Origin: Flavobacteriaceae bacterium PS02334
GTDB lineage: Bacteria; Bacteroidota; Bacteroidia; Flavobacteriales; Flavobacteriaceae
DNA: 64,000 bases
Direction of reading: 5' to 3'
NCBI GenBank assembly: GCA_029959295.1
Contig: JASCOH010000004.1
Coordinates: 62,001-126,000, forward strand
The position numbers and the translations under genes are program-made. The notes beneath the pieces are model-generated. The model was given only the letters and a program-made list of their open reading frames with translations, did no database searches and had not been told where the DNA came from. Of this stretch, positions 1 to 29,920 are shown in pieces (the first letter of the stretch is position 1; every line of letters begins with the position of its first letter).

Positions 1-605
1 TTCCAAATCTTCCGGACTTTGAAAATTATAAAAGTGGCTTAAATAGTTCTGTAGAAACCATTTTCTCAGACTTACCCAAACTTCAATCTGGTACTGGCGT
101 AGATAAATTTACAAATTATTCATCAACTACTAATAAATATTTAACCGATTCTTATATCAGAAATGGTATCGACATACTTACCCAGCATATAGCTCGCCCA
201 CATTCAATTCAAGATAAGAAAATCTATGAAATCGCAGTTAATAAATGGAATGATGAAACAGAACGACTTAACTACAATGATTTACCGGAAAATTTAAAAA
301 CACACAAGAACAGAACCTCATTTACAGATCGTTTTAAAGTAGTTGCTAATAACGTTAATGCGTCACACACCGTTGTTGCACACATAGCCAAAGATGGCCA
401 CCATTATATCCATCCAGACATTGAACAAAACCGATCAATTAGTGTTAGAGAAGCTGCCAGGCTACAGTCTTTTCCCGATGATTTCTATTTCGAAGGTGTA
501 AAAGAAGGCGCAAATAGAACAGCTGCTTTTAAACAGATTGGAAATGCTGTACCGCCTTTAATGGCAAATGTGATAGCTAATGAATTAAAGAAGATATTAT
601 GTTAG
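1..605 (+). CDS. DNA (cytosine-5) methyltransferase, C-terminal part (gene runs off the left edge)
   Basis: The frame is open from the left edge (first full codon at 3) to a TAG at 603-605, giving the last 200 residues of a C5-cytosine DNA methyltransferase. This enzyme moves a methyl group from S-adenosylmethionine to cytosine in a specific DNA site. Near the end are [13 protein letters not shown] (motif IX region with the RLQxFP signature) and QIGNAVPP (motif X), in the usual order and spacing. The catalytic PCQ and ENV motifs must lie left of the window, so activity cannot be judged. The ~140 residues before motif IX would include the target-recognition region. The 3' end overlaps the next gene by 7 bp (599-605), indicating one transcription unit. 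Base composition is AT-rich, as in the next two genes. Assignment is from motifs; target site is unknown. Confidence 0.9.
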
Positions 606-2791
606 ATGTAAACTCAAGCAATGGTTTTTTCAAAATCCGACCAGCAGCAAGGATAATAAACACAATCGGGAGCGATCTTATTGGGGACACCTATGCAGCA
701 TTAGTTGAACTTGTTAAAAACTCTTATGATGCCGATGCTTCTTTCGTAAGTATAGTTTTTGACTATAAAACATTAGGAAATGAAAAAGCATTATGTATCA
801 ATATTTCTGACGATGGGCATGGTATGAGTTTTGATACGGTAATTAATAAATGGCTAGTACCTGCAACTAATGATAAATTAACTAGGAAACTTAGCCCCAC
901 AAAAAATCGTCTATTTCAAGGCAGAAAAGGAATAGGAAGATTTGCTGCCTCGATATTGGGGCAGGAGATGACAATGACATCTATAGATGAAACTGGCGAA
1001 AAATCTACAACAGTAATTGATTGGAGAGTGTTTGAAGAAGATGGATATCTTGAAAATGTTGAGCTATTAGTTGAAAAGACAAAAACTAATAATCCTTGTG
1101 GTACTACAATAGAAATAGTAGCAAAAGATGAAGAAGATAGTTTTAAAATATCAGTTTGGGATAAAAACTCGATAGATAATTTAATTAACGAGTTAAGAAA
1201 ATTAATCTCTCCGTTTAAAGATTTCGAAGATGATAAATTCTCAATTAATTTGTCTTTCACTAATTGCCCGATTGAAACATATAACAACACAAATTTTAAT
1301 ATAGAAACTTATCCTATTGTCGAGTTATATGATTATAGAATTTATGGCGTAATTGACAAAACTGGTAATTTCAAATTAACTTACGAGAATAACATTACTG
1401 ATGTTGTACAAATTGAGAATTTAAATGGTCATTATAAATTAGAAGGTGGCGGAAAATATTGTGGAAACTTAATCATAGATTTTAGAGTTTTTGACAGAGA
1501 ACCGGAAGCTATTGAAAATTTAATAAACAAAGGCCTTATTGATCCTGTTTCTAAAAAGTTTGCCGGCAAAAATGAAGCTAGAAAAATGCTCAATGAAGTT
1601 TATGGTGTAAATATTTACAAAAATCTTTTCAGAATAAGACCATATGGCAATGGTGGAATTGACTGGTTAGACCTTGACAAAGACAGAATTCAAAATTTCA
1701 CACTAAAAATCAGTAACAACCAAGTAGTTGGGTTCATAACAATTGAGCCCGAAGAATTTTCAAATTTGGAAGAAAAGAGTGCTAGAGACGGATTAAAGGA
1801 AAATGAATACTATATAGGATTAAAGGAACTTGCAAAAAAATCCTTGAAAGAATTAGAATTAAGGAGATTAATTTTTAGGGAAAGAAGCCTAAAAAGCAGA
1901 AAAGCAAGGACTACAATTAATGATAGCATACAAAATTTATTTAGTTTTTCTGACTTATCTAAAAATATTGAATTGAGATTGGAACAATTTAATGTTGATA
2001 AAGAAAAAATATCACAAATATCTAAGATCCTTAAGAATGAAGAAGAAAGCAAAACAGAATTGCTAGAGGACATACAGAAAACTATTGCAATTTATCAAGG
2101 TCAAGCAACCCTCGGTAAAATTGTAAGCTTTATATTACATGAAGGTAGGAAACCAATACAATTCTTCAATACAGAAGCAAATGTAATTGAGAGATATTTA
2201 AAACATTTTAGAGCATCAAAAGATATAGAGTTATTAGATTATCTAGATGAGAGTGCCAAAGGAATAAGAAGAAATAGCAAGCTTATATCCGACTTATTCA
2301 AAAGAATAAATCCATTAGCTACACAAAAAAGGGGAAACAAAACAGACTTTCAAATACTAGAAGTTATAGAAAATTCTCGTAAAATTTTTGAAAGCACAAT
2401 GAAAGATTATGGCATTAATATAAATGTCGATTGTGATAAATCTGCAAAAATTTATGGATGGGAAGAGGATTTATTTACATGCATTACAAATTTATTAGAG
2501 AACAGTATCTATTGGCTAAATCTAACAAATGTAAAGGATAAATCAATTTCTATATCTGTATATGAAAATTTAGATATAATAACAATAGACTTTACAGATA
2601 ATGGTCCAGGTCTAACTAAATTAGAGATTGAGAGTGAAATAATATTTGAACCCGGATATTCGAAAAAGAATAATGGAACAGGACTAGGGCTGGCAATTGC
2701 AGGTGAAGCTGTAGAAAGATTGAATGGAAAATTGACAGCAAGGCAAGTTGATAAAGGAGTGTATTTTCAAATAGAAATTAATAAAAAATGA
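599..2791 (+). CDS. Dual GHKL ATPase: MORC/Hsp90-like N-terminus fused to histidine-kinase-like C-terminus
   Basis: 730 residues with two separate GHKL ATP-binding modules. The N-terminal one has [11 protein letters not shown] (residues 37-47), DDGHGM (71-76) and GRKGIGRFA (108-116), the pattern of MORC/paraMORC and Hsp90-type ATPases. A middle region of ~300 residues with little recognisable sequence follows. A predicted coiled-coil stretch (~405-500) leads to a DHp-like helix with FILHEGRKP, where His514 is a candidate phosphoacceptor. The C-terminal catalytic module has NLLENS (631-636), DNGPGL (667-672) and GTGLGL (693-698), as in histidine kinases. No signal peptide or membrane segment is visible, so it is probably cytosolic. 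It overlaps the methyltransferase gene by 7 bp and the receiver-protein gene by 4 bp (ATGA). Prokaryotic MORC-like ATPases are known from restriction-modification neighbourhoods; a role here in sensing or restriction with a phosphorelay output is inference. Confidence 0.85.
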
Positions 2792-3900
2792 TGGAATTAA
2801 AACTACTAATTGTTGAGGATGACCCAGAAGCTATTACAGCATATGAAAGGGACATAAGTTCTTTTAATCTAGGAAGCCCCGTAAAAATATCTCAAACTAT
2901 TATTTCTGACAAAAATAATGCTATTGAAATTTTGAAAGGGAAAGATATTTCATTTGATGCTGCGATTGTTGATCTTAAGCTAGACACAATGGATAATCCA
3001 GACGAGGAATATTCAGGAAATGAAGTTTTAAGAATCATTAAAGGGAATATTAGATTTCCTGTATTTGTAATTACGGGTACACCACAACATATCGCAGAGG
3101 ATTTAAAAGATGAAAGTAGTTTTTTTAAAATTAAAGTTCGAGGAGAAGAGGACAATCATCTAGAACAATTAGTAAGTATCTATAACACAGGAATTACTAA
3201 GATTTTAGGTAAGTCAGGACAGATAGAAGGTTATCTCAGTACTATATTTTGGAAACATCTTGCAATATCAATGGATTCTTGGATTTCTGATACATCTAGG
3301 TCTGCAGAACAAAAAGAAAAATCATTATTACGATACACTCTTCTCCACATGCAAGAGTATATTGATGAAGAAATTGAAAAATATCATCCTAATGAATTTT
3401 ATATTTCCGCTCCCATTAAAAAAAATATTTTTACAGGTGATGTATTAATTTATGAAAACAATAGATTTATAGTTCTTACCCCCTCTTGCGATATTGTATT
3501 GCGAGGTGATGGTACTAGAAACACAACAATGATTTTATTATGCCAAATAGAACCTCTTTCAATAGCTATTTCAAATTTCAATTTATTAGGTGCTGATACA
3601 GGAGACAATAATGAAAACAAGAAAAAATTAAACAGATTTATTGAGAACAATGGAAAGCAAAATTTTCATTTTATTCCTAAAACTAATGTTATTGAAGCGG
3701 GGCTAATTAATTTCCAAAAAAAGAGAACAATACCCGAGAGCGATATAAATAAATTGATAGAAGATGGTGTAGTCGTTAGAATTGCAACGATATCGGCACC
3801 TTTTTTAAAAGACATTATTTCTAGATATTCCAATTACTATTCTAGGCAAGGAGCACCTGATTTTAATACTTCCGAAATATACAGTTCCTTATTCAAATAG
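2788..3900 (+). CDS. Response-regulator receiver protein with uncharacterised C-terminal domain
   Basis: 370 residues. The N-terminal ~125 residues form a CheY-like receiver: acidic pair Asp11-Asp12, phosphoacceptor Asp62 in AIVDLKLD, Thr96 in VFVITGTP, and a Lys at ~116. The receiver has an unusually long loop after the phosphoacceptor. The remaining ~245 residues are not a winged-helix, HTH or cyclase output domain that I recognise. They include FIVLTPSCDIV around residues 228-238 and a C-terminal ISAPFLKDIISRYSNYYSR segment. The start codon overlaps the stop of the GHKL/kinase gene (ATGA at 2788-2791), so the two are almost certainly co-translated and the kinase-like module is the likely partner. 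The gene ends the operon; no intrinsic terminator is evident immediately after it. The receiver call is strong; the function of the C-terminal half is unknown. Confidence 0.85.
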   Translation: MMELKLLIVEDDPEAITAYERDISSFNLGSPVKISQTIISDKNNAIEILKGKDISFDAAIVDLKLDTMDNPDEEYSGNEVLRIIKGNIRFPVFVITGTPQHIAEDLKDESSFFKIKVRGEEDNHLEQLVSIYNTGITKILGKSGQIEGYLSTIFWKHLAISMDSWISDTSRSAEQKEKSLLRYTLLHMQEYIDEEIEKYHPNEFYISAPIKKNIFTGDVLIYENNRFIVLTPSCDIVLRGDGTRNTTMILLCQIEPLSIAISNFNLLGADTGDNNENKKKLNRFIENNGKQNFHFIPKTNVIEAGLINFQKKRTIPESDINKLIEDGVVVRIATISAPFLKDIISRYSNYYSRQGAPDFNTSEIYSSLFK

Positions 3901-4066
3901 TTTAAGATTTAACGAATAGACAAAATTTAAAGAAAGTTAAATAAATGATTGTTTAAGATTTTCCTTTAAAAACAAACTTTACTAACTGACGACAGCACCA
4001 ACCAAACTTTCTAAAAGCTGTCTTCACAACTTTCTAAAAGCAATTACCGACTTCTGCTTTCATCCG

Positions 4067-4197
4067 CATCTTTTAACTAAGGATGCACCTGTCCCATTAG
4101 ACAAGCTAATAGAAGCTTACAATGTGAAAAAGAAAAGCTCTACGAAAGATTATTGCAGGTAGAAAAAGACAAAGTTGCATATCTTGAAAAATATTAA
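4067..4197 (+). pseudogene. Remnant of an XRE-type regulator C-terminus, frameshifted
   Basis: One frame from 4067 reads LLTKDAPVPLDKLIEAY and then runs into a TAG at 4160-4162. The overlapping frame from 4120 continues as QCEKEKLYERLL and VEKDKVAYLEKY to a TAA at 4195-4197. Joined, they resemble the linker and coiled-coil tail common in XRE-family repressor-like proteins of Bacteroidota. The helix-turn-helix part is absent and the join needs a small deletion near 4118-4122. It is therefore read as a decayed fragment. The family assignment rests on my memory of such tails and is tentative. Confidence 0.45.
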
Positions 4198-4217
4198 AAG
4201 AAAAACAAACAAAAATA

Positions 4218-4304
4218 GGCGTTCACAGCCTCTTTTTTGTTCACATCATTCACAGATTATCTAAGGATAGTGAATGTATAAGACATAGATAGTGTATGAA
4301 CGCC
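4218..4304. repeat. Nested inverted repeat
   Basis: GGCGTTCA (4218-4225) is matched by TGAACGCC (4297-4304). Inside them, CATTCAC (4247-4253) is matched by GTGAATG (4270-4276), and the loop carries TATC/GATA. It lies between the accessory operon and the convergent chromosomal genes. It could be the end of a small mobile element, a recombination site or a weak terminator; nothing in the sequence decides. Confidence 0.5.
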
Positions 4305-4314
4305 ACTTTCTAAA

Positions 4315-4350
4315 CAAAAAAAGCTCCCAGAATAAATCCCAAGAGCTTTC
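4315..4350 (-). terminator. Intrinsic terminator of the DJ-1/PfpI gene
   Basis: Read on the minus strand, an AAAGCTC/GAGCTTT stem (4343-4349 with 4320-4326) is followed by a T run (complement of 4316-4322). It sits ~27 bp past the stop codon of the 4377-5045 gene. Confidence 0.7.
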
Positions 4351-4376
4351 AAAAATTACTTTCCAACACAGCAGTT

Positions 4377-12575: not shown

Positions 12576-15500
12576 TTATTTCAATATAATTTTTCTAGTA
12601 GTCTGCATTCCGTTTTCTAAGTATACTTTCACAATCAGCGCTTGCTGGCTTGCGATAACTTCCTGAACACGGAATTCATTTGCATTTACCTTTTTATTTT
12701 CATAGATATTTCTTCCAAGGATATCATAAATCGCTATGCTTTGGATGTTTTCCAATGTAGATCTTACGATAATTGCTTTGTCTTTTACACCAACCGTCAA
12801 GTTGTTATTGATAGCCTCAAAATCTGGATTGCCCAATGTTTCTGAAGTATATCTAAGAACAAATCTGGTATTGAAAGTTCCAACAGCTGATGTAAATTCA
12901 TAGTCAGATGCTTTCAAATCATGGATAATATTCAAAGCTTTATCTTCTAAATAGATATTTTGATCGGTGAATGTTCCGTCAAACTTGGCAAGGCTGATTT
13001 TCAATGTTCCTGCCATAGTGGTTTTATACCCCAAATCTACAATATCAGCATCGTTGAAAGGCAATGCCCTTCCTTGAATGCTGAGGTTCTTTTGAGATGC
13101 GATTGAATATAATGTAACTGCATTTCCGCCGAAAACTTCTCCGTCGAAACTGCGATCTAGTTCATTTGTCGCTCCATCGATATATCCAACCAAAGCTTGG
13201 TTGAATCCATTTTGTGCATTTGTCAAGTTCAACCATATTCTGTGCTTTTCTGCAGCAGCTTGAGGCGTATTTCCTGTTCTCAAGAACTGTGAATTGTGCA
13301 GCGCTACTCTCATGCCGTTGTTGAACGTCGCGTTTCCGTTAGCATTTCCTTTTACGAAGAATGACTGACCGGCAGCGATATATCCGTCATAGGTAACTGC
13401 GCTTGAAGTTCCCGTACCTCCAACAGCGTTGTAAACGGCGTAATCATTTGGTGCATATCCATAAAATCCATCTTGATTCGGAACCGGATCTAACGGCGTA
13501 TTGTGCGTCCAGACATAAATAGTTCCTTCCAATTGAGGATTGATTGACGAAGCCAAGAATTTATCTGCATGGATGGCAGAAGGGTAAGGATTTCCGAGCA
13601 AATTCCACTTTTCTTGTGTAGCGTGTCCTGCAACCGGAATGGTTACAGCGCCATTATGAGCTTCTCCTGAGAAATTTCCTGTAAATTCAGATGGCGCAAG
13701 AGGATTTGTTGAAAAAGTCTGCGGGGCTCTGACAATATAACCGATGCCTTTTTCCATATTTGAAGTTTTCAAAACATTTACCCAGTCTTGGAAATCAGTA
13801 TCCCATCTGAAATATTTATCGGCAAGCGTGTTTGGAGAAAGCGCTCCCAAAGTTTGAGAAGCAACCGGAGATGACCAATAGGTATAATCATAACGGTACA
13901 TCGGTTTTGCAATTCTTTCCATGGCAATCGCATTACCGCTATTTACTGCGTTATCGCAAACTTGAACAAGGCTTCCGTTGTTTTTTATGGTAAAGATTCC
14001 ATTGTTTACAAATCCGTATTCAACCTTGATGTAACTTTCATCGCTGATCGTAATATTACCGCTATTTGTCAAGCTTCTTGCTGAAAAACTGCCTGAAACA
14101 GAAGTATTATAAAGTCCATTGATGACAACATCTTTTGTACTCTCTGGAAGACCTCCAACCCAATTCGTTCCGTCCCAAGTTACAGTGCCTTGCGAGCCAA
14201 AAACATTAACTGCGTTTGTCGCTGCATAACATGTCACTGTGTTTTCTCTTACTTGCGCATAAAATTGGTAGTGCTCTAAACCTGCTAAAGATGCTATTGT
14301 CAATGTTGCTGTAGTTGCGCCTGTATAAACACCGCCGTCAGCCAATTCTGTCCAAGCTGTTTGGCTCGGCGTGCTGACAAACCATTGATATACTAATGGA
14401 TTTCCGCCTGCAAAACCTTCTGTTGCTGCAACAGTTAAAACTGCTGCTCCGCATTTGTCTGAGAAAGTTGGCTGTTGTGTAATTACTGGAAGATTTTCTG
14501 AGATTGTAGGCGCTATTCCTGTACCAAAACACTCATTAGCTTCTATGGTTACAATTGTCCAATCTGCACTATTATAAGTCGTTTTTGGTGCAAGTGCTGT
14601 TATTTTTCTTTTTAGATAATATCCAACACGATTTGATCCAGCAACGTCATCAATTATTGTTCCGCTACTAGTTCTCAACTGAAAACCATCGGCTGCATTA
14701 TAACCTCCATCTATTGTTCCATGTCCAGTTGAAGCTGGAGTAGCGCATTGATTTGTACCAGTTACTTTTATAATTGCAATTCCTCCAGAAGGTATTGTTC
14801 CTGAAATAGTTGCATAATTTACAAAATCGTTATTACTATAAGTACCAGCTCTGAAAATTCTATAATTAGAAAGATTTTTTGAAGTTGGCGTTCCATTAAA
14901 TATAGAAATATATCCGCCATTTCCGCCATTTTCATCATATACTTCATAAATAAGAAGATCAGAAGGAACTCCTGTACCGTTTTCACATCCTGAAGACAGA
15001 TTGTGAATTACATTAAAAGTCGTTGAAGCCGTACAGCCCTGTGCATTTGTAGTTACAAGATTTCCTGCTGTAGCACCTGCTGGAACTACGACTTTTATCT
15101 CTGTTGTAGAAACTGGAGTTACCGTTGCAGACACACCATTAAATGTAGCTGTTGCGCCAATAAGGTTTCCTGCTGTTGCCGTAACCGTAACTACTGTTGC
15201 AACCGGACCAGAGTTTGGCACGACAGTATTTGTTGCAGTTGCACAAGTTCCTGTACCTTGAATTAAAAAAGTATAAGGATTTTCATTACCTGTCAAATCA
15301 TTATTTGCAATTGAAACAACAGCTGTTCGAACACCCGATAAAGTAGGCGTAAATGTAATTTTAAAATTAGATGTACTTCCTGAGGCAATAGAACTTGCAG
15401 GATATTGCGTTATTGAAAAATCACCAGGATTTGTTCCTCCGATGCTAATCGTCGGAGTACCGCTTAAAAGCAATGTGCTTAACCCTACGTTTCCAATTGT

Positions 15501-18500
15501 ATATTCTTTTTCTTGGCCTACACCAATATTTTGTGATGCAAAAAGAGTGAAATTTAACGGCTGTGCCACTGTGCTGCCACTAACGATATTTTGGCTATTT
15601 GCTTTTACATAAATTTCTGCACCTGCTGGCTGTGTAATATTTAGTGTATAATCTTCTACTTCACCGTCAAAAAGAGTTTCACAAGGAGTCGCTACATCAC
15701 TATATTTTGTACTAACCCTCATTCTGATATTTCCTGATTGTGCGCTTGTAGGTACAGCTACATTTAGAGGTGATAGTGATGTAAGTCCGTCTGTTACATT
15801 TGTTGCAGAACCTAAATCATAAGATTCACCAGCAGAAAATGTTCCATTTCTATCCCAGTCTATCCAAACTTTAGTCTGAACTGTGAAATTTCCATCAGTA
15901 TTTACTTTAACTGATAAATCATAACCTTCCCCTTTATTTAATGTGGTACTAATAGAAGTGTAGTCTTGATAAGGCAGTGTTTTTCCACTGTTATTATTTA
16001 TAGTATTAAAACTAACATTTGTAATACTTGTATTTGCGTCCATATTACCTTCAGAAAGGCAATAAGTGATAGTAGGGGTTGCACAAATCGAAACTCCTTG
16101 AGTCCAAGTCGTTCCTCTTAGCACAAAAACCTTAAAGCAATATTGTGTATCATTTAACAAACCTGTTATTGCTTTTGAAGTTGCAGTTCCTTTATAAACC
16201 ACTTGATTTGCGCTTGCATACACGTCATTTGCAGTATATGCTGAACCATCTCCAGAAGGTGTAAAAGTTACAGCACCTTGATTTGCCACAATTAAAACTT
16301 GGTCATAACATGTTGGGCTATTCCAATTTAAAGTAACTTTTTCAGAAGCTACAGTAGCCGCTAAATTTCTAACATCATCTTGGGCAACACCTGCAGTAAT
16401 TCTTGACGCTGCAGAGCCAGAAGCCCAATTGGTCAAATTTTCTCCAACATAAGGGAAAACTGCAAAAGAATAAGTTTCATTTTCAACTAATCCAGTAATG
16501 ATTGCTGAAAGACTGTTTCCTTTATAAACAACTTTTCCTAAAGTGGCGGGATTCGCTGAAGTTGCAGTTGCAAAATCTAAATTTGCATTATATGTATTGG
16601 CGCTATTCTTTGTCCCCGTTGGTAAAGTTCCTCCTTGAATAGCAAAAACGACATACCCTGTTGGCGTTGTTCCTGATACTGGCGCTGCCCATGAAAGCGT
16701 TACACCATTATCTGTGAAACAACCTTGAAAAGCCGTTGCATCATTAGGCTGTGAATTTGTCAAAGTCAAAGTTCCTACACTAGAAGCTGTAGGTCCGCAT
16801 GAATTGGTAACTAAACATTTATAGCGATAGCCGTTCATCTCTTCTGAAGTAGCTGATGTAACATAACTTGCACTATTAGCACCTGAAATGTCTGACCAAT
16901 TAGTTCCTCCATCAATAGACAATTGCCATTGGTAAGTAACCGTTCCTGATGCTGCAGAAGCAACAACTGTAAAAGTTTTTGGTGCCGGAATAACAACACT
17001 TGTGCTATTTGGCTGTGTCGTTAAGCTTGGAACATTTGATATCGTTATGCTTTGGGTTTTGACCGCAGACCAGCAATTGCCATTAAAACTACGTACATGC
17101 ACATTTCCAGTTGCAGCTACATTATAAGGACTGCTTACAGGACTTGTTGTAGCAGTTCCTGTTGCGCTTGTTTGCCAGTAATATACATTTCCATCTGTAC
17201 TTTCACCTGTCGCAAAATTATAGCTCACTGTTGCTGTCCCACAAGAAGTAACTGGGGTAAATGTTCCTTGAGGCGTCGCTGGCAATGCATTTACAGTTCT
17301 AGCTCCAGAAACATCAGATTTAGCTGAAGGGCATGGTGAAGCGCCTGAAACTATTGCATAATAATAAAAAGTCCCTAATTCGCTATTTGAAGGCGTAAAA
17401 CTAGCAGAATTTGTTCCCACCGTCACATCATCTCCTGCAGTAGCATTGCTGTTATCTGTAGATTTATACCATTGATAAGATAATGAAGTTCCGGTTCCAA
17501 CAATAGAAAGCGCAGTAAAAGAGGCTCCTTGACAAATACTAACGGCTCCAGTATTTGGTTGTGTCGTAATATTTACTGGTTGATTAATTACCACTGCATA
17601 AGCCGCAGTTGCACCAGCTGACCAAGCTCCAGCTTTATTTGCTCTTACATAATAATTTCCACCTGTTGTAACTAAAAGCGTTCCTGTTGCATTATTCGCC
17701 GTTGAAGTTCCTGTCGCTGAAGTTTGCCAATAATAAGTCTCTCCGCCAGGAATTGTTCCTGTATAAGTAAGCGTTGTTGAACTGCAGGCAGGCGTTGTTC
17801 CAGAAATTGTTCCCGATGGATTTGCCGGAATATCAGTTCCTGTTCCCTGAATTGCAAAAGTATAAGGGTTTTTAGTGCTGTCGTTGTTAGCAATCGTTAT
17901 TGTTGCTGTTCTTGTTCCTGTTGCGCTTGGGTCAAAAGTAACTTGAAAAGTTGTGCTTCCTGCTGCGGCAACGCTTGTCGCAGGAATTGCTGTTACTGCA
18001 AAATCAGCAGCATTTGTTCCTGAAATAATCGCATAAGGAGAACTTCCTGTCAAGCTCAAGGCGTCGCTACCTGTATTTTGAATCGTAAAGGTTCTTACAA
18101 TTGTTCCTGTAGTAATATCTTGGCTTCCGAAATCAGTATGATTAGCAGTTGAAGGCGTAGTGCTTCCGTTTGTGATATTTGCAGCATTTCCTTGAAGATT
18201 CATGTTTGGGGCAACTGTTGTACCCGTTCCTTGTATTGCGAATGTATAAGGATTTTCATCGCTGTCATTGTTCGCAATACTGATAGTTGCATTTTTTACT
18301 CCTATAGCATTAGGATCAAAAGTGATTTGAAAAGTAGTATTTCCAGATGTCGCTACTGGTGTTGCAGGAAAAGTTGTAGCCGTAAAATCACTAGAATTGG
18401 CACCTGAAATTGCAACAATTGGAGTTCCTGACAAATTCAAATCAGCAGTACCTGTATTTTGAATTGTAAAAGTTCTTACGATAGATCCCGAAGTAATATC

Positions 18501-19076
18501 TTGATTGCCAAAATCTGTGTAATTTGTGCTAGATACCGTTGTTGCGCCATTTATTATATTAGTAGAATTACCTTGTAAATTTATTTCTGGAGCTGAAACA
18601 GCTGCTGTACCTTTAATTTCAACAGAAAACAATCTTGCTCCTGCACTTGCACTAGCATTTGGAGCTGTTATTCTTATTTTAGCTGATGAATAACTGTAGG
18701 GAAGATTTATAACTGGATTTGATCGTGTACTTGTTGTATGCAAATTTGAACCTACTTGGCTCCATGCGGTACCATTCCAATATTCAATTTTAATGTCATC
18801 AGAATGACTTACTATTGTTCCAAATGATTCAAGAGATAGTGTTATTGTAATTCCTGTATACTGAGAAAAATTCATGCTAGGAGACTCTAAACTCTTACCT
18901 GAAAGCATTTTCCAATAATCTGTACCAGAATTATTCATATCCGCATTTATAACCCAACCTGAATTTCCACTCGGCGTATTTCGAGTTGGAAGAGATAATT
19001 TTGGAATAATATTAACCTGCCCAAAAGCATTCCCAATACCAAAAACCAATAAAATTAATAGTAAAATTTTCTTCAT
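12576..19076 (-). CDS. Giant multidomain T9SS surface protein (choice-of-anchor D, Ig-like, FN3, GEVED domains)
   Basis: 2166 residues. Signal peptide [19 protein letters not shown]. Order: an N-terminal beta-sandwich (~20-155); two ~120-residue choice-of-anchor D repeats (~160-410); Ig-like segments (~415-770); fibronectin type III-like segments (~775-1000); a region ending in [10 protein letters not shown] (~1005-1145); a third anchor D repeat; an IPT/TIG-like segment ([14 protein letters not shown]); a lamin-tail-like domain (~1365-1510); more Ig-like sequence. The C-terminal ~550 residues hold [18 protein letters not shown] and GYIVRAPQ, then the sorting tail ending in TRKIILK. This tail resembles what is catalogued as a type C T9SS sorting region. 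It is probably an adhesin or matrix protein on the cell surface; no catalytic domain was found. The C-terminal module is shared with the 20465-24388 protein. Confidence 0.88.
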
Positions 19077-19687: not shown

Positions 19688-20167
19688 ATGTCAAAAGAAT
19701 ATCCAACAGTAAACGAAGCCATCCAAAAATTAGAAAATTATTGTGCTTATCAAGAGCGCTGTCATGAAGAAGTTGTTCAAAAACTGCGAACCTTAAAAAT
19801 GACTCCTGACGAAATCGATAGTATTGTAGTTCAATTAATTACAGATAACTTCTTAAATGAAGAACGTTTTGCCTGCTCTTTCGCGAGAGGAAAACATCGC
19901 ATAAAGCACTGGGGAAAAGTTCGAATTATTCGCGAATTGCAATTGCGCCATATTTCAAAATACAATATCGACAAAGCACTGAAGGAAATCGACAGTTCAG
20001 AATATCTGGAGAATTTCCACCTTTTGGCAGAAAAAAATTGGGAGGCTATTGCCGAAACCAATCTGTTGAAAAAGAAAAAAAAGTGGTGCGACTTTCTCTT
20101 CAGAAAAGGATTTGAAAATAATTTAGTCTATGAAAAGCTTCAAGATTTGACTTCAAAAACAACTTGA
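19688..20167 (+). CDS. recX: Regulatory protein RecX
   Basis: 159 residues, normal for RecX, which binds RecA filaments and limits recombination and SOS activity. The three-helix RecX repeats are visible: a first repeat with CHEEVVQKLRTLKMTPDEID, a second with FLNEERFACSFARGKHRIKHW (the conserved DexxFA...R..W signature), and a third with LRHISKYNIDKAL. It is not next to recA here. It sits between the two giant T9SS genes and is transcribed on its own from a TATTTTTG element at 19658-19665. Confidence 0.92.
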   Translation: MSKEYPTVNEAIQKLENYCAYQERCHEEVVQKLRTLKMTPDEIDSIVVQLITDNFLNEERFACSFARGKHRIKHWGKVRIIRELQLRHISKYNIDKALKEIDSSEYLENFHLLAEKNWEAIAETNLLKKKKKWCDFLFRKGFENNLVYEKLQDLTSKTT

Positions 20168-20464: not shown

Positions 20465-23400
20465 ATGAAAAAAATCATCTTACTCCTGCTATTATTATTA
20501 CCTTTTTTTGGATTTTCACAAACTGATTTAGTAAAATGGACTGGTCTAACACCTGATGGATCCAATACCTCGATTACACCGACTTTATCAAATCCAAACA
20601 TTATTGCTACGATATCTGGAACAGATTTCGCTCTAAACTGGTCAGGGTTCGAAGGCTATAACTGGACAACAGATACACAGTTAAATTCAAACAAATATAT
20701 CCAGATGGCAATTTCGCCAAAGACAGGTTATAAAATAAATCTGAAACAAGTACGTTTTGCATACAGCAAAGTCGATGATGCTAATGGATGTAAAAAATTT
20801 CAGGTAAGATTCTCAAAAAACCCATCTTTCCCATCAAACGGAACATCATTATTAGCAGAAACTACAACATTGGCAGGAAGCAATAATGTATCTATTAATT
20901 TTCCTACAAACACAACAATATCCTCAACTGAAACTGTTTATGTGCGTATTTATGCTTACAACAGAACTGTGAACGGTTGGTCAGGCGTTCCTTTTCAACT
21001 ACGTCACAAAGCCAACGCTAATAGTAATGAAGCTTATTATTTTCCAACATTTAATGGAACAATAACTTCTAATTGCACGATAGCAGGTGACGAAACAACT
21101 TTTGGAACTAATAGTTGGATAGGTTATGTATATGACAATGCTACTGATACAGCTACTCCACCTGTAGCACCTTTTGCTACCGCAAATTACAAAGGATATG
21201 TAACAGAGAATGAATTATTTGACCGTGATTCAGATACAGGAAATTTCACAGGATTGACAACTCAATTATGCGGAACTTATAATGATAACTTTGCTGTTCG
21301 CTATAAAATGAGAAAAAACTTCCCGGCTGGTACTTATGTATTTACAGTTGGAGGTGACGACGGATACAGATTAAAAGTAGGAAATACTACAGTAATTGAT
21401 AATTTTGTGCTTCACAGCTATGTTACAAGTACTTCAACAGCTATAACACTTAGCGGCAACACTGATTTGACCCTTGAGTATTTTGAAGACATGACGCATT
21501 CAAGAGTTTCTTTCTCTTACACTTACACACCATGTGTTACTCTGACTGCTCCAACAGGAATTGTACAATCTGCAGCGACAACAACTTGTACGACTGGCGA
21601 TAGCGTAGTATTGACTGCACAAGGCGGAACACCGGCAGGAACTACTTACCAATGGGGAACTGGTTCTGTCGCAGGAACAAATCCAATCGCTGGAGAAACT
21701 GGAGCTTCAATAACTGTAAGCCCAACTACAGCTACAACTTACTGGGTAAGAAGATTCAGCAATGATGCTTGTGCTACTTATTCAACAATAGCAACAACAA
21801 CTGTAACTCCAAGAGATAGAAATATTTCTGGAACAGGAGAATGGATCGGATATGTTTATTCAAACTACACAAATAACGCTGTAACTCCAGCCGTTAATGA
21901 CGCGAATTACAGGGGATATGTAACTGAAAATGCAATTTTTGACAGAAATGCAGGAAATGGGCCATTCGTAGGTAGAGAGACTTACCTTTGCAATGCACCT
22001 TCAGAAAGATTCTTCGTAAGATATAAAATGACTTTGAACCTTAACGCTGATATCTACAACTTTACGGTAGGTGGTGATGACGGTTACAGATTATACATTG
22101 ATGGTGTTTTAACAACTATCAACAACTGGAACGAGCACAGCTATACATCAAACTCAATAACAAAAACTTTTGCTACTGCTGGAGCACATACTTTCATATT
22201 AGAATATTATAACGGACCAACAACTTCTCACGTTTCATTCACTTACAATAAAAGAGAAGGTGATCCGACTGAATTTGGCAACAACGTTTGGAATGTATAC
22301 GGTTATAATGAAGAAAACATTGATATCGATGCAAATGCTTCAAGCTATGCTGGATATTTCGTTGATCCATCATTAGGAATCAACTCAGAAGACAGATGGG
22401 CAAAAACAGTATCTCCTTCTGCAGCAGTTACAAACGGAGTTACTGGCGCAACAGGATGGGCTGGCGGACAAATTGGTGCTGACAACTTTACGGTTGTTCA
22501 CAAAAGAAAAGGTTTCCCTTGCGGTCTTTACCAATTAAAAATGGACAAATGGGATGACGCTGTGAAAATTTACCTTGACGGAACACTTATCTTTAATGTA
22601 AACGGATATAATAATAATGCCAATACAATCGTTGGAAACTACTATTTGAATTCTGAATCAAAAATGGAAGTTCGCTTGAGAGAAGGTGGTGGTGATGCTT
22701 ATGTAAAAATGACATTGACTGACAAACCAAGCATCTATACAAGTGCTGGATGGAGTGCAACTCCAGAAAACACATCAGTAGTCGTAAGCGACAATTTATC
22801 ATTGACAACTAATCTAAATGTATGTTCATGTACAGTTAAAGCTGGAAAAAAATTAGTTATCAATGCAAATGCAGCTTTGAATGTAATGGAAAATGTAGTT
22901 GTTGAAAGCACAGGAAACATCTTCGTGAAAAACACAGGGTCTCTTGTTCAAATAAAAGACAATGCAACTTTCACAGGCGACGTAAACTCTTTCACTATGG
23001 AAAGAAATACAACTCCAATGATTATCTATGATTTCACATATTGGTCATCTCCAGTTGTAGCACAAAATTTAAAAACATTCTCTCCATTGACATTGGCTGA
23101 CAAATATTATAGCTTTAACGGAACAGGATGGGTAGTTGAAAATGCAAATACCACAAGCATGACTCCTGGTAAAGGATATATCATCAGAGCGCCACAAGGT
23201 TGGAATAACACGATCACAAATGGCGGAACGAGCAACGGTAACTCTTATGTAGACGGAACTTTTGCCGGAGGTACTTTCCAAGGAGTTTTCAAAGGAAAAG
23301 CAAATGCAGGAGACATAAACGTGCCAATTTTAGGAACTTCAGGATCTTCAAACTTAATAGGAAATCCTTATTCTTCTCCTGTAAGCGTAACTGAATTCAT

Positions 23401-24388
23401 GAAAGTGAACACCGGAAAAATAGACGGTAACTTTTATTTCTGGACACACAAGACTCGTGTTTCTAATACTCCAAATCAAAGCGGCAATTACAGCTACAGC
23501 TCTCAAGATTATGCAGTTTACAATAAAACTGGAGGAGTTGCAACTAGCCCAATTGCTAAAAAACCTGATGGAAATATCGCAGCAGGCCAAGGATTTTTTG
23601 TAAACACGACAACAACTGGTGGAAATATAGTATTCAAAAACAGCATGCGTGTTACAGGTACTGACAGAAATTCTGATTTCTTCAGAAATGGAAACACCGT
23701 TCAAACTACAGAAGAAGACAACAGATATTGGATAAGTCTTGCAAATGCAGATGGTCTTTACAGCGAATTCCTTTTAGGATATGTTGACGGAGCTACAAAC
23801 AGCATCGATGAGAGCTATGACGGCGTGACTTATTCTTCAGGAAGCGTAATGCTTTACACAGTAATCAGCGATAACAAATTGGCAATCCAAGGCCGTCAAT
23901 ATCCTTTTGCCACAACTGATGCAGTTCCTGTTGGATACAAAGTGGCAACTGCCGGACAGTACACAATTAGCATCAACAGAAAAGATGGTCTTTTTGAAAA
24001 CCAAGCGATTTATCTTTTTGACAAAACGACAAATGAATACCATGATTTGACAGCTGGTGATTTCACATTCACTTCAACAGCCGGAACTTTTGACAACCGT
24101 TTTGAAATGCGCTATGTGAACGAAACATTAGGTGTTGATACGCCAATCGTTTCTAATTCTGATATCGTAGTTTACAAATCAGGAAACCAAATCGAAGTAA
24201 AAGCGAAGAATTTTATCATCGACGGAGTTCAAGTATATGACATCACTGGAAAAAGCCTTTTCTCTAAAAAAGGAATTGACAACAGCGAATTCAGCACATC
24301 TGGCTTGAACATCGCAACACAAGTGGTGATCGTGAAAGTAACTTTAGACAACAACCAAACGGTTTCTAAAAAAGTAATAATGAACTAG
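20465..24388 (+). CDS. Giant T9SS surface protein with PA14-like repeats
   Basis: 1307 residues. Signal peptide MKKIILLLLLLLPFFGFSQ. After an N-terminal beta domain (~20-200), two PA14-like modules occur at ~205-358 and ~455-600, each with SWIGYVYD/EWIGYVYS, a KGYVTEN/RGYVTEN motif and FTVGGDDGYRL. An Ig-like spacer lies between them, and a third related module (~605-755) has WNVYGYNEENIDI. PA14 domains often bind carbohydrates. The C-terminal ~500 residues (SLVQIKDNATF, YWSSPVVAQ, GKGYIIRAPQ, to NQTVSKKVIMN) match the C-terminus of the 2166-residue protein and carry the T9SS sorting region. Probable surface adhesin or glycan-binding protein. A terminator follows at 24410-24443. Confidence 0.88.
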   Translation: MKKIILLLLLLLPFFGFSQTDLVKWTGLTPDGSNTSITPTLSNPNIIATISGTDFALNWSGFEGYNWTTDTQLNSNKYIQMAISPKTGYKINLKQVRFAYSKVDDANGCKKFQVRFSKNPSFPSNGTSLLAETTTLAGSNNVSINFPTNTTISSTETVYVRIYAYNRTVNGWSGVPFQLRHKANANSNEAYYFPTFNGTITSNCTIAGDETTFGTNSWIGYVYDNATDTATPPVAPFATANYKGYVTENELFDRDSDTGNFTGLTTQLCGTYNDNFAVRYKMRKNFPAGTYVFTVGGDDGYRLKVGNTTVIDNFVLHSYVTSTSTAITLSGNTDLTLEYFEDMTHSRVSFSYTYTPCVTLTAPTGIVQSAATTTCTTGDSVVLTAQGGTPAGTTYQWGTGSVAGTNPIAGETGASITVSPTTATTYWVRRFSNDACATYSTIATTTVTPRDRNISGTGEWIGYVYSNYTNNAVTPAVNDANYRGYVTENAIFDRNAGNGPFVGRETYLCNAPSERFFVRYKMTLNLNADIYNFTVGGDDGYRLYIDGVLTTINNWNEHSYTSNSITKTFATAGAHTFILEYYNGPTTSHVSFTYNKREGDPTEFGNNVWNVYGYNEENIDIDANASSYAGYFVDPSLGINSEDRWAKTVSPSAAVTNGVTGATGWAGGQIGADNFTVVHKRKGFPCGLYQLKMDKWDDAVKIYLDGTLIFNVNGYNNNANTIVGNYYLNSESKMEVRLREGGGDAYVKMTLTDKPSIYTSAGWSATPENTSVVVSDNLSLTTNLNVCSCTVKAGKKLVINANAALNVMENVVVESTGNIFVKNTGSLVQIKDNATFTGDVNSFTMERNTTPMIIYDFTYWSSPVVAQNLKTFSPLTLADKYYSFNGTGWVVENANTTSMTPGKGYIIRAPQGWNNTITNGGTSNGNSYVDGTFAGGTFQGVFKGKANAGDINVPILGTSGSSNLIGNPYSSPVSVTEFMKVNTGKIDGNFYFWTHKTRVSNTPNQSGNYSYSSQDYAVYNKTGGVATSPIAKKPDGNIAAGQGFFVNTTTTGGNIVFKNSMRVTGTDRNSDFFRNGNTVQTTEEDNRYWISLANADGLYSEFLLGYVDGATNSIDESYDGVTYSSGSVMLYTVISDNKLAIQGRQYPFATTDAVPVGYKVATAGQYTISINRKDGLFENQAIYLFDKTTNEYHDLTAGDFTFTSTAGTFDNRFEMRYVNETLGVDTPIVSNSDIVVYKSGNQIEVKAKNFIIDGVQVYDITGKSLFSKKGIDNSEFSTSGLNIATQVVIVKVTLDNNQTVSKKVIMN

Positions 24389-28475: not shown

Positions 28476-28877
28476 TTATTCATTTTTTACTGTGATTGTT
28501 ATTTCTTCATTGAATTTATATTCGCCTTTTTTAAAAATTTCTTTGTTTGGCAAAACAATTTCATAGGTGTAGATGCCTTTTGACAGTTCAAAAACGCATT
28601 CTTTTCCGTCTTTTTGGATTACCAGTTCTTTTTTCTGAACATTGCCTTCTTCATCTTTGCCAGTTAGGCTGAAAGTTATTTTTTCTGTAAGCTTGTTTTT
28701 TATACAGACGCTTTCAACAATTTTAGAATCAGATGATTTGGTTTCACTCTTCCCATTCTTGAAAAATGATAGCCCATTTACTAATACTTCGCCAGCTTTT
28801 AATGTTTTATCAAAGTCAGATTGGGAATACACTGAAGAAGAAAAAATCAGAAGAAAAATTATAATTCTAGTTTTCAT
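28476..28877 (-). CDS. Small exported protein of unknown function
   Basis: 133 residues. A signal peptide ending near VYSQS precedes a mainly beta-strand protein (for example KITFSLTGKDEEGNVQKKEL and GIYTYEIVLPNKEIFKKGEY), suggesting an Ig-like or small beta-sandwich domain. No catalytic residues, lipobox or sorting domain was seen. It is the last gene of a three-gene unit with the thioredoxin-like and 146-residue exported proteins. It starts 10 bp after the stop of the thioredoxin-like gene. Function is not assigned. Confidence 0.72.
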   Translation of the reverse strand: MKTRIIIFLLIFSSSVYSQSDFDKTLKAGEVLVNGLSFFKNGKSETKSSDSKIVESVCIKNKLTEKITFSLTGKDEEGNVQKKELVIQKDGKECVFELSKGIYTYEIVLPNKEIFKKGEYKFNEEITITVKNE

Positions 28878-28887
28878 TTAGTTTTCA

Positions 28888-29448
28888 TTAATGCTGTCCC
28901 TGATTAGAATTATCTTCTATAACCTTGCTAAGCTTTTCCATATTTACTTCATTGTCACTGCTTCTGTAAAGCACTTTTTTATTTTTAATCACTGCGATAT
29001 ATGGTATTTGTTCGGAAGAAACTTTAAACAATGAGCTTTTTACATAGTAGTCAATGAAATCAATATTAGAATAAATACTATCTCTATTTGCGAAATGACT
29101 AAGAGTAATATCATGAGATTTAAGAAATTCATTTTTACTAATAATTTTCTTGCACTTAAGTGTGTCTTTTTCAGTTGAAAGAGTGAAAAATTGTACATCC
29201 TTATCTTCAAATTGCTTGCTTAAGCTATCAAGTTCTGGCAAACTTTCTATACAGGGCTTACACCAAGAAGCCCAAAGGTCAACTACAATTAATTTGTCAG
29301 AATTATAAATCTTATAAAAATCACTTTGATAATAGCTATTTGCTGTGTTTTCATCTTGATTAAATTTAATTTCGGTTTTGCCTATCGCAAAAAAGATAAT
29401 TAGGACAATTAAGAATATCAAAAGTACAGTAACAATAATTTTTTTCAT
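28888..29448 (-). CDS. Membrane-anchored TlpA-like thioredoxin-fold protein
   Basis: 186 residues. An N-terminal hydrophobic segment (IIVTVLLIFLIVLIIFFAIG) acts as an uncleaved anchor or signal. It is followed by a thioredoxin fold with WASWCKPC at 59-66 (Cys63 and Cys66) and a cis-Pro region around SSEQIPYIAVI. This is the layout of TlpA/ResA-type periplasmic thiol-disulfide reductases. The middle gene of a three-gene minus-strand unit: 31 bp after the 146-residue exported protein and 10 bp before the 133-residue one. Its neighbours have few cysteines except the 146-residue protein, whose WWCRKF, AGCEY and LICF cysteines could be a substrate (inference). Confidence 0.87.
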   Translation of the reverse strand: MKKIIVTVLLIFLIVLIIFFAIGKTEIKFNQDENTANSYYQSDFYKIYNSDKLIVVDLWASWCKPCIESLPELDSLSKQFEDKDVQFFTLSTEKDTLKCKKIISKNEFLKSHDITLSHFANRDSIYSNIDFIDYYVKSSLFKVSSEQIPYIAVIKNKKVLYRSSDNEVNMEKLSKVIEDNSNQGQH

Positions 29449-29479
29449 AAGTAATAATTATTAAGATATTAAATTACGC

Positions 29480-29920
29480 CTATTTTATTTTCTCTAAAAT
29501 CACTTCTAAATATGTTTCATCATCAAAAGTTACAATTTTATTTTTTTCAGGTTTCACCATCCATTTTGCACCTTCAATCTCCTCAGGATTAATTTTAGTT
29601 ACTATTACAGATTCAATTTGCTTTGAGGAAATTTTGCCTGAACTGCTTTCAATCAATTCGCTAGTTTTAATATAGCCTGTCGCATGTGCTGTACCGTCCT
29701 TTTCAAATGTAGCATTAAAACCACCATAACCATTCGGCTGAAAGCATATTAGTACCTCTGTTGATATTGAGATATATTCACATCCAGCAGTAATAGTAAA
29801 TTTTCTACACCACCATCCTTTTTTTCCTTGTATTTGATTTACGACATCTGTTTTCGTCTGTGAAAATGAATTTTGAGAAAATACTACCATAGCAAATATG
29901 CTAAATAAAAATGTTTTCAT
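29480..29920 (-). CDS. Small exported protein of unknown function with conserved-looking cysteines
   Basis: 146 residues. Signal peptide MKTFLFSIFAMVVFSQNSFS. The mature part is beta-rich with Trp-Trp-Cys (GWWCRKF), AGCEYIS and EVLICFQPNGYG, giving three cysteines near the N-terminus. The overall size and strand pattern would fit a lipocalin-like barrel, but no motif proves it. First gene of the three-gene unit that is divergent from the XRE regulator gene. A TTCTCGAGAA palindrome (29966-29975) lies in its upstream region. Confidence 0.7.
   Translation of the reverse strand: MKTFLFSIFAMVVFSQNSFSQTKTDVVNQIQGKKGWWCRKFTITAGCEYISISTEVLICFQPNGYGGFNATFEKDGTAHATGYIKTSELIESSSGKISSKQIESVIVTKINPEEIEGAKWMVKPEKNKIVTFDDETYLEVILEKIK

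Follow-up and report, generated by a model that had tools for sequence, protein, structure and literature searches.

A two-component-like system linked to C5 methylases, HEF_HK / Response_reg_2 (Pfam PF19191, PF19192), was described in 2021 (PMC8011034). In the part of that article consulted, its loci were reported from 628 strains, the output of the methylase-linked pairs was left unknown, and control of restriction-modification (R-M) systems was offered as speculation. GHKL ATPases of the paraMORC type occur in restriction operons near DNA cytosine methylases and Vsr (PMC2292703, consulted in part), and HEPN RNase domains fused to paraMORCs (PMC3710099, likewise in part) set a precedent for coupling an effector to an ATPase of this sort. 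The unit analysed here lies at the left edge of a 64,000-nucleotide stretch of Flavobacteriaceae bacterium PS02334 (assembly GCA_029959295.1, contig JASCOH010000004.1, positions 62,001 to 126,000, forward strand), referred to as the window. It joins a C5-cytosine DNA methyltransferase, a histidine kinase with two ATPase domains and a response regulator whose output domain has a predicted toxin fold. The unit is real, linked and widespread, and its make-up and company suggest that it is probably a DNA-sensing defence unit.

Compared with the paraMORC operons, the window unit adds a histidine-kinase core and a receiver partner; the word 'receiver' is absent from the portion of PMC2292703 consulted. 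The Shedu protein VcSduA (PMC12137116) resembles it in that a GHKL ATPase domain is proposed to govern an anti-phage effector, but its nuclease is fused to the ATPase and the part of that article consulted describes no kinase core or receiver. Relatives of genes 2 and 3 share an operon with MzaB-E in several loci, whereas gene 2 of the window matches MzaB only at E 0.057. No Mza gene was found beside the window unit, by tblastn in its own assembly record (L009) and, on the right flank, from the open reading frame (ORF) list only. The Detocs defence two-component system signals from kinase to receiver to an effector domain, like the window unit; to our knowledge it has no DNA methylase, and its effector is a different one.

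Architecture of the unit

The methyltransferase gene (gene 1) runs off the left edge: the window holds its C-terminal 200 amino acids (aa; 1..605, + strand), and the whole 419-aa gene lies at L009:16346-17605, starting 655 bases left of the window. Gene 2 (599..2791, +) encodes a paraMORC-like histidine kinase of 730 aa with an N-terminal GHKL ATPase (HATPase_c_3), a middle part, an H-box with His514 and a C-terminal HATPase_c. Gene 3 (2788..3900, +) encodes a 370-aa response regulator. Its receiver (REC) domain spans residues 1-128 (2788..3171, +) with the phospho-acceptor Asp62, and residues 194-370 (3367..3900, +) form an output domain of predicted MazF/CcdB-like fold. An earlier note, made from the sequence alone, had recorded three overlapping genes for a methyltransferase, a dual-GHKL kinase and a receiver; this was confirmed, with overlaps of 7 and 4 bases. 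A Cro/C1-type helix-turn-helix (HTH) gene of 70 aa (L009:16144-16356, 644-856 bases left of window base 1; HTH_3, 2.6e-16) overlaps the start of gene 1 by 11 bases, and the operon is therefore one of four genes.

Comparison with HEF_HK / Response_reg_2

PF19192 was over its cut-off in 6/295 genomes of the class. The six loci were fetched and carry a methylase (346-375 aa), a GHKL protein (967-1002 aa) and a receiver-like protein (528-581 aa; one of the six is cut at 518 by a contig end) in the same part order as the window unit. Shared features are the pair of N- and C-terminal HATPase domains, the H-box His followed by Glu or Asp, and a C5 methylase near the pair. The window proteins are shorter, the kinase having 730 aa against 967-1002 and the receiver protein 370 against 528-581. 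Kinase profiles of the two families aligned at 100% over 671 columns, and the C-terminal parts of the receiver proteins at 90.6% over 153 columns with a Cys-Asp motif in register; the receiver halves gave no alignment in the C-terminal-part profile comparison. At E 0.01, PF19191 matched 0/55 kinases and PF19192 matched 0/57 receiver proteins, and PF19192 gave no match over cut-off in four genomes. Membership in the published Pfam families was rejected for want of a model match, though the profiles show homology, and the alignments indicate that the two are sister families built on the same plan. The earlier note's description of the arrangement as undescribed is thus right only in part: the three-part plan was published in 2021 (PMC8011034, as far as consulted), yet this branch, homologous as it is, is missed by the published models. 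The kind of system is known; no description of the window branch or of its output fold turned up in the literature searched.

Linkage of the genes across genomes

Sixty-two loci were collected by scanning genome contigs with gene 3, and they say little about the frequency of gene 2 without gene 3. By their titles they come from Bacteroidota, Spirochaetota, Acidobacteriota, Bacillota, Pseudomonadota, Campylobacterota, Verrucomicrobiota, Planctomycetota, Actinomycetota and others. Since L017/L070 and L015/L040 are probably identical records and L042/L044 and L045/L046 near-duplicates, all counts are of loci and not of independent events.

A gene 2 homologue adjoins gene 3 in 60/62 loci, and the two exceptions (L040, L068) are cut before it. 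Incomplete homologues were a 219-base piece in L077, broken genes in L059 and L064, and genes cut by the contig end in L063, L071 and L080. A C5 methylase is nearby in 54/62 loci (53 by tblastn, L065 by Pfam), and an N6/N4 methylase in L047. The distance to the methylase is at most 2.2 kb in all but L070 (4.3 kb, with McrBC in between). Of the seven loci without a methylase, a contig end truncates five (L040, L046, L063, L068, L071); in L077 the kinase gene is decayed, and no methylase was found in L035. L055-L060, L072, L079 and L080 have the methylase downstream, and L052, L069, L076 and the plasmid-collection records L097 and L099 have it on the other strand; as its position and strand vary between loci, the genes stay together when their order changes. 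The window's own genome has five C5 methylase genes in 4.6 Mb, so chance alone would not be expected to place one next to a given gene. The earlier note had been prepared to give up a single system if homologues of genes 2 and 3 were never found together or near a methylase, and these counts clearly show the opposite. Its view of the genes as one system is strongly supported by the linkage and by the joint exchange of kinase core and receiver in five loci (see below).

The spread is patchy: gene 3 is present in 3/294 other genomes of the class and in 0/39 nearer relatives. In PLSDB 44 records match, of which 41 are from Campylobacter, and 41/44 are typed as conjugative. On one Campylobacter jejuni conjugative plasmid (L097:4786-9251) kinase and receiver share one strand and dcm lies on the other. 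The 13 kb fetched of an Enterobacter mori plasmid (L098) yielded no methylase. Kinase-receiver pairs with an N6/N4 amino-methylase in place of the C5 methylase were seen at L135:1178-5899 and L047:12184-13797. Kinase and receiver genes are both broken into several ORFs at L059:8393-10981 and L064:6045-10486, so the unit undergoes loss as well as gain. Carriage by a phage or virus was rejected for lack of a match in viral contigs or phage records. Comparison with PHROGs yielded phrog_4575 (unknown function; 7/29 members) and was uninformative.

Residues of the putative phosphorelay

Kinases were compared in alignment A4 (55 homologues, without L040, L044, L059, L063, L064, L068, L071, L077 and L080) and receiver proteins in alignment A3 (57 homologues, without L040, L041, L059, L064, L068, L077 and L081). 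Alignment A5 comprised 36 of the 62 loci together with L009 and L016. The HATPase_c_3 model (N-terminal) and the HATPase_c model (C-terminal) both matched in 55/55 kinases. Of 20 motif positions tested, 18 were identical in all: the phospho-histidine His514; Glu37, Asn41, Asp44, Asp71, Gly73, Gly75, Gly108, Lys110, Gly111 and Gly113; and Asn631, Asn635, Asp667, Gly669, Gly671, Gly693 and Gly697. Gly695 was kept in 54/55. Position 515, after the H-box His, is Glu in 46 kinases and Asp in 9. In the receivers Asp62 is invariant (57/57), Asp11 is kept in 52/57, and position 96 holds Thr in 32 and Ser in 25. Column 119, tested for the receiver Lys, has another residue, in a loosely aligned region.

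Exchange of kinase core and receiver

Five loci, by title from Mesocricetibacter, Veillonella, Candidatus Enterococcus, Streptococcus mitis and Haemophilus (L055-L058, L060; the broken L059 was left out), were compared module by module, with the kinase core taken as window residues 490-730. Identities of kinase core and receiver run together (r 0.98 over 10 pairs, which share loci, so that r is descriptive), and the other module pairs gave r -0.06 to 0.33. Between L058 and L060 the N-terminal half is 98% identical, the kinase core 55% and the receiver 50%; between L055 and L058 the output domain is 81% identical and the receiver 54%. The drop in identity sits just before the phospho-histidine.

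In a wider comparison the pattern was less marked. Over 37 loci the receiver tracked the kinase core at 0.84, the N-terminal half at 0.85 and its own output half at 0.74, and the methylase parts followed the kinase core weakly (0.33 to 0.46). When nine far loci and the near-duplicate L037 were dropped, the values for the 27 closer loci were 0.54, 0.52 and 0.28, respectively. These values suggest that receiver and kinase belong together and that the output half is more freely exchanged. That the core, and not the whole kinase, is the partner of the receiver is suggested by the five loci.

Output domain of gene 3

The output domain carries the motif L-T-P-x-C-D, in which Leu230, Pro232, Cys234 and Asp235 are invariant (57/57) and Thr231 is kept in 55/57. 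A full-length gene 3 model lists receivers as matches to its N-terminal part, and the output domain was therefore given a model of its own. Its predicted fold is MazF/CcdB-like; the matches listed were toxins, and other folds are possible. This result was obtained with VIA-align, by re-aligning chains ranked by Foldseek. The domain thus resembles the MazF/Kid and CcdB toxins in predicted fold, but differs from them in lacking sequence similarity, in its own invariant motif and in being fused to a receiver. Membership in the MazF family by sequence was rejected (hhalign 0.7% against PemK), and a profile search of the PDB with the output domain was uninformative.

Stand-alone output domains were seen at L132:6054-7613 (186 aa) and L134:5308-6946 (184 aa), each ending a compact trio whose partner ORFs (213-244 aa and about 115 aa) had no informative Pfam match. 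Four such loci were opened; the domain was called as an ORF in these two, not in L133 or L137. The trio is possibly a small system of its own. At L136:4699-8990 a 637-aa protein matching the output-domain profile adjoins a 793-aa relative of the GHKL kinase; no methylase was identified there, the adjoining 508-aa ORF being outside the scan.

Methylase and DNA-reading domain

The PCQ and ENV positions of the methylase are invariant in 38 aligned homologues, and the best match of the window methylase is HaeIII methylase (7.2e-29). DISARM, suggested by a match of gene 1 to DrmMII (7.7e-80), was set aside, since neither the DISARM helicase nor any other Drm gene was seen by eye among the neighbouring ORFs, on which no Drm models were run.

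Two of the 55 kinases open with an EcoRII-N domain (L027, 1.1e-17; L049, 2.7e-20), which gives fusions of EcoRII-N with the two-ATPase kinase at L027:7423-9999 and L049:7258-10014. In the L027 protein, the match to EcoRII structures covers residues 17-94. EcoRII reads CCWGG. The methylases adjoining these kinases best match 3lx6/3me5 (5e-83, 7.1e-103), listed as 'Cytosine-specific methyltransferase', which we take to be Dcm-type enzymes of EcoRII's site. If so, kinase and methylase in L027 and L049 would read the same site.

Defence and repair genes near the homologues

The search for partner genes used tblastn, a small set of representatives and stored DNA of at most 10 kb per side (less on short contigs), so that other nucleases may be missed; partner families were named by Pfam and PADLOC on single examples. 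Vsr was present in 23/62 loci. MzaB and MzaC were found in 8/62, with MzaD and MzaE in six of these and alone in L063 and L076; mzaB and the end of gene 3 have 8, 8 and 4 bases in common in L030, L036 and L038, respectively. McrB-McrC occurred in 4/62 loci, a HaeIII-like enzyme in 4/62 (one a fragment), an HhH-GPD glycosylase in 3/62 and an AspBHI_N/Mrr_cat endonuclease in L065. None of the restriction or repair partners queried was present in 26/62 loci, some on short contigs, and 23 of these have a C5 methylase. The company of Mza, McrBC, HaeIII-like and AspBHI-like genes and of plasmids supports a putative role in defence.

Among 40 loci with an upstream methylase, searched with three small profiles, an HTH gene precedes the methylase in 15 (the window's own included); 12 of the 15 overlap it or sit within 3 bases, and ten examples match HTH models. 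HTH genes ahead of a methylase are typical of R-M operons, where they encode controller (C) proteins. The window unit is alike by family, with a small Cro/C1-type HTH gene directly before the methylase. By analogy, this gene may time methylase expression as controller proteins do, and it fits a phosphorelay that senses modification.

Proposed mechanism and alternatives

The likeliest mechanism, for which we would allow slightly less than an even chance, is a phosphorelay that senses DNA modification and has a toxin-fold output; the order and linkage of the genes, the conserved residues, the exchange of domains and the predicted folds are observed, and sensing, phosphotransfer, toxicity and defence are what we infer. 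The unit would work like an R-M system with the cut replaced by a signal. The methylase would mark host DNA, its expression perhaps timed by the HTH gene ahead of it, to judge from the families. The gene 2 protein, a MORC-type ATPase with a histidine-kinase core, would read unmarked DNA, as the DNA-reading domain of two relatives suggests. On recognition it would autophosphorylate at His514 and pass the phosphate to Asp62 of gene 3, a step suggested by the invariant residues and the joint domain exchange. The MazF/CcdB-like domain, going by its fold, would then be released or activated and stop the infected cell or the invading DNA. More tentatively, the unit can be seen as a restriction system without a restriction enzyme, whose kinase may inspect DNA for the mark of its own methylase and report unmarked sites through the phosphorelay to the toxin-fold domain.

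Several observations weigh against this mechanism. The EcoRII-N fusion is rare and absent from the window's kinase. Over the 27 loci the receiver-core value is barely above that for the N-terminal half, and the bootstrap interval of core minus output (-0.03 to 0.57) includes zero, with 3.5% at or below it. Compared with PemK/MazF by sequence, the output domain reached an hhalign probability of 0.7%, and one of 20 column shuffles scored higher (5 proteins; only 5/14 PemK loci had a usable frame). The position judged by eye to be the Arg of the MazF RP motif is Arg in only 19/57; the MazF active site is therefore unlikely to be kept, and the fold by itself does not imply toxicity. No homologue was found among viral contigs or phage records, and by eye no defence gene was seen among the ORFs neighbouring the window's own unit.

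The poorly kept Arg would also suit a signalling system that regulates DNA modification or restriction genes and has a binding domain in place of an effector. Receiver and kinase have the usual layout of a regulatory pair, and the consulted part of PMC8011034 speculates on R-M control; but 26/62 loci lack any queried restriction or repair partner, and the fold matches listed are toxins, with unlisted folds possible. We consider such a system unlikely. The unit might instead serve neighbouring restriction modules (Mza, McrBC, HaeIII-like, AspBHI-like) as an accessory switch, the window unit being an orphan or acting on unlinked nucleases. The eight loci with Mza, the three mzaB overlaps and the McrB-McrC, HaeIII-like and AspBHI_N/Mrr_cat neighbours speak for it; yet no partner is general, the same 26 loci have none of those queried, and the 15 kb shown of one Campylobacter conjugative plasmid carry no annotated restriction enzyme, which makes a switch of this kind decidedly doubtful. 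Least probable is that the restriction component is the GHKL protein, as the naming of the BbrUII/HgiDII family implies, with the receiver protein only tuning it. The NCBIfam BbrUII/HgiDII restriction enzyme model matches gene 2 residues 19-172 (2.5e-17) and PADLOC REase_II matches at 1.1e-12, but the former match is limited to the ATPase part, reaches 62.7 of 550 bits, far under the curated cut-off, and Pfam finds no nuclease domain in gene 2.

Were the modification-sensing phosphorelay correct, the same logic would hold for the HEF_HK / Response_reg_2 loci from 628 strains, because the six receiver proteins fetched carry the Cys-Asp motif of the output domain. The predicted toxin-like fold, the occasional DNA-reading domain and the block exchange of core and receiver would together give an unexplained association a mechanism that can be tested: signalling, not cutting, when the host mark is absent from DNA. 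MORC ATPases act in eukaryotic gene silencing, and a bacterial MORC-type ATPase driving a phosphate signal that can be measured would directly report what these clamps sense.

Genomic setting in the window

The three larger genes have a G+C content of 31.3%, lower than all 134 nearby segments of equal length (mean 37.4%, standard deviation 1.6), which bears out the AT-richness remarked on in the earlier note. Of the gene debris reported on the flanks, a broken coding tail was found in the gap between the unit and the next gene (3901-4376; by eye resembling the end of an HTH regulator), but the neighbouring ORFs are intact. The nuclease or helicase hoped for left of the window was not there and was rejected: ORFs of at least 100 aa in the 16 kb to the left look by eye like ordinary chromosomal genes. 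An empty site could not be shown, as none of 40 relatives offered a joined counterpart of the flank genes. Further to the right, and all judged by eye, lie two very long secreted-protein-like ORFs of 2166 and 1307 aa (12576-19076, -; 20465-24388, +) with repeats and similar C-terminal tails, and a RecX-like ORF of 159 aa (19688-20167, +). A second AT-rich patch (28476-29920, -) holds three short ORFs, one of them thioredoxin-like by eye.

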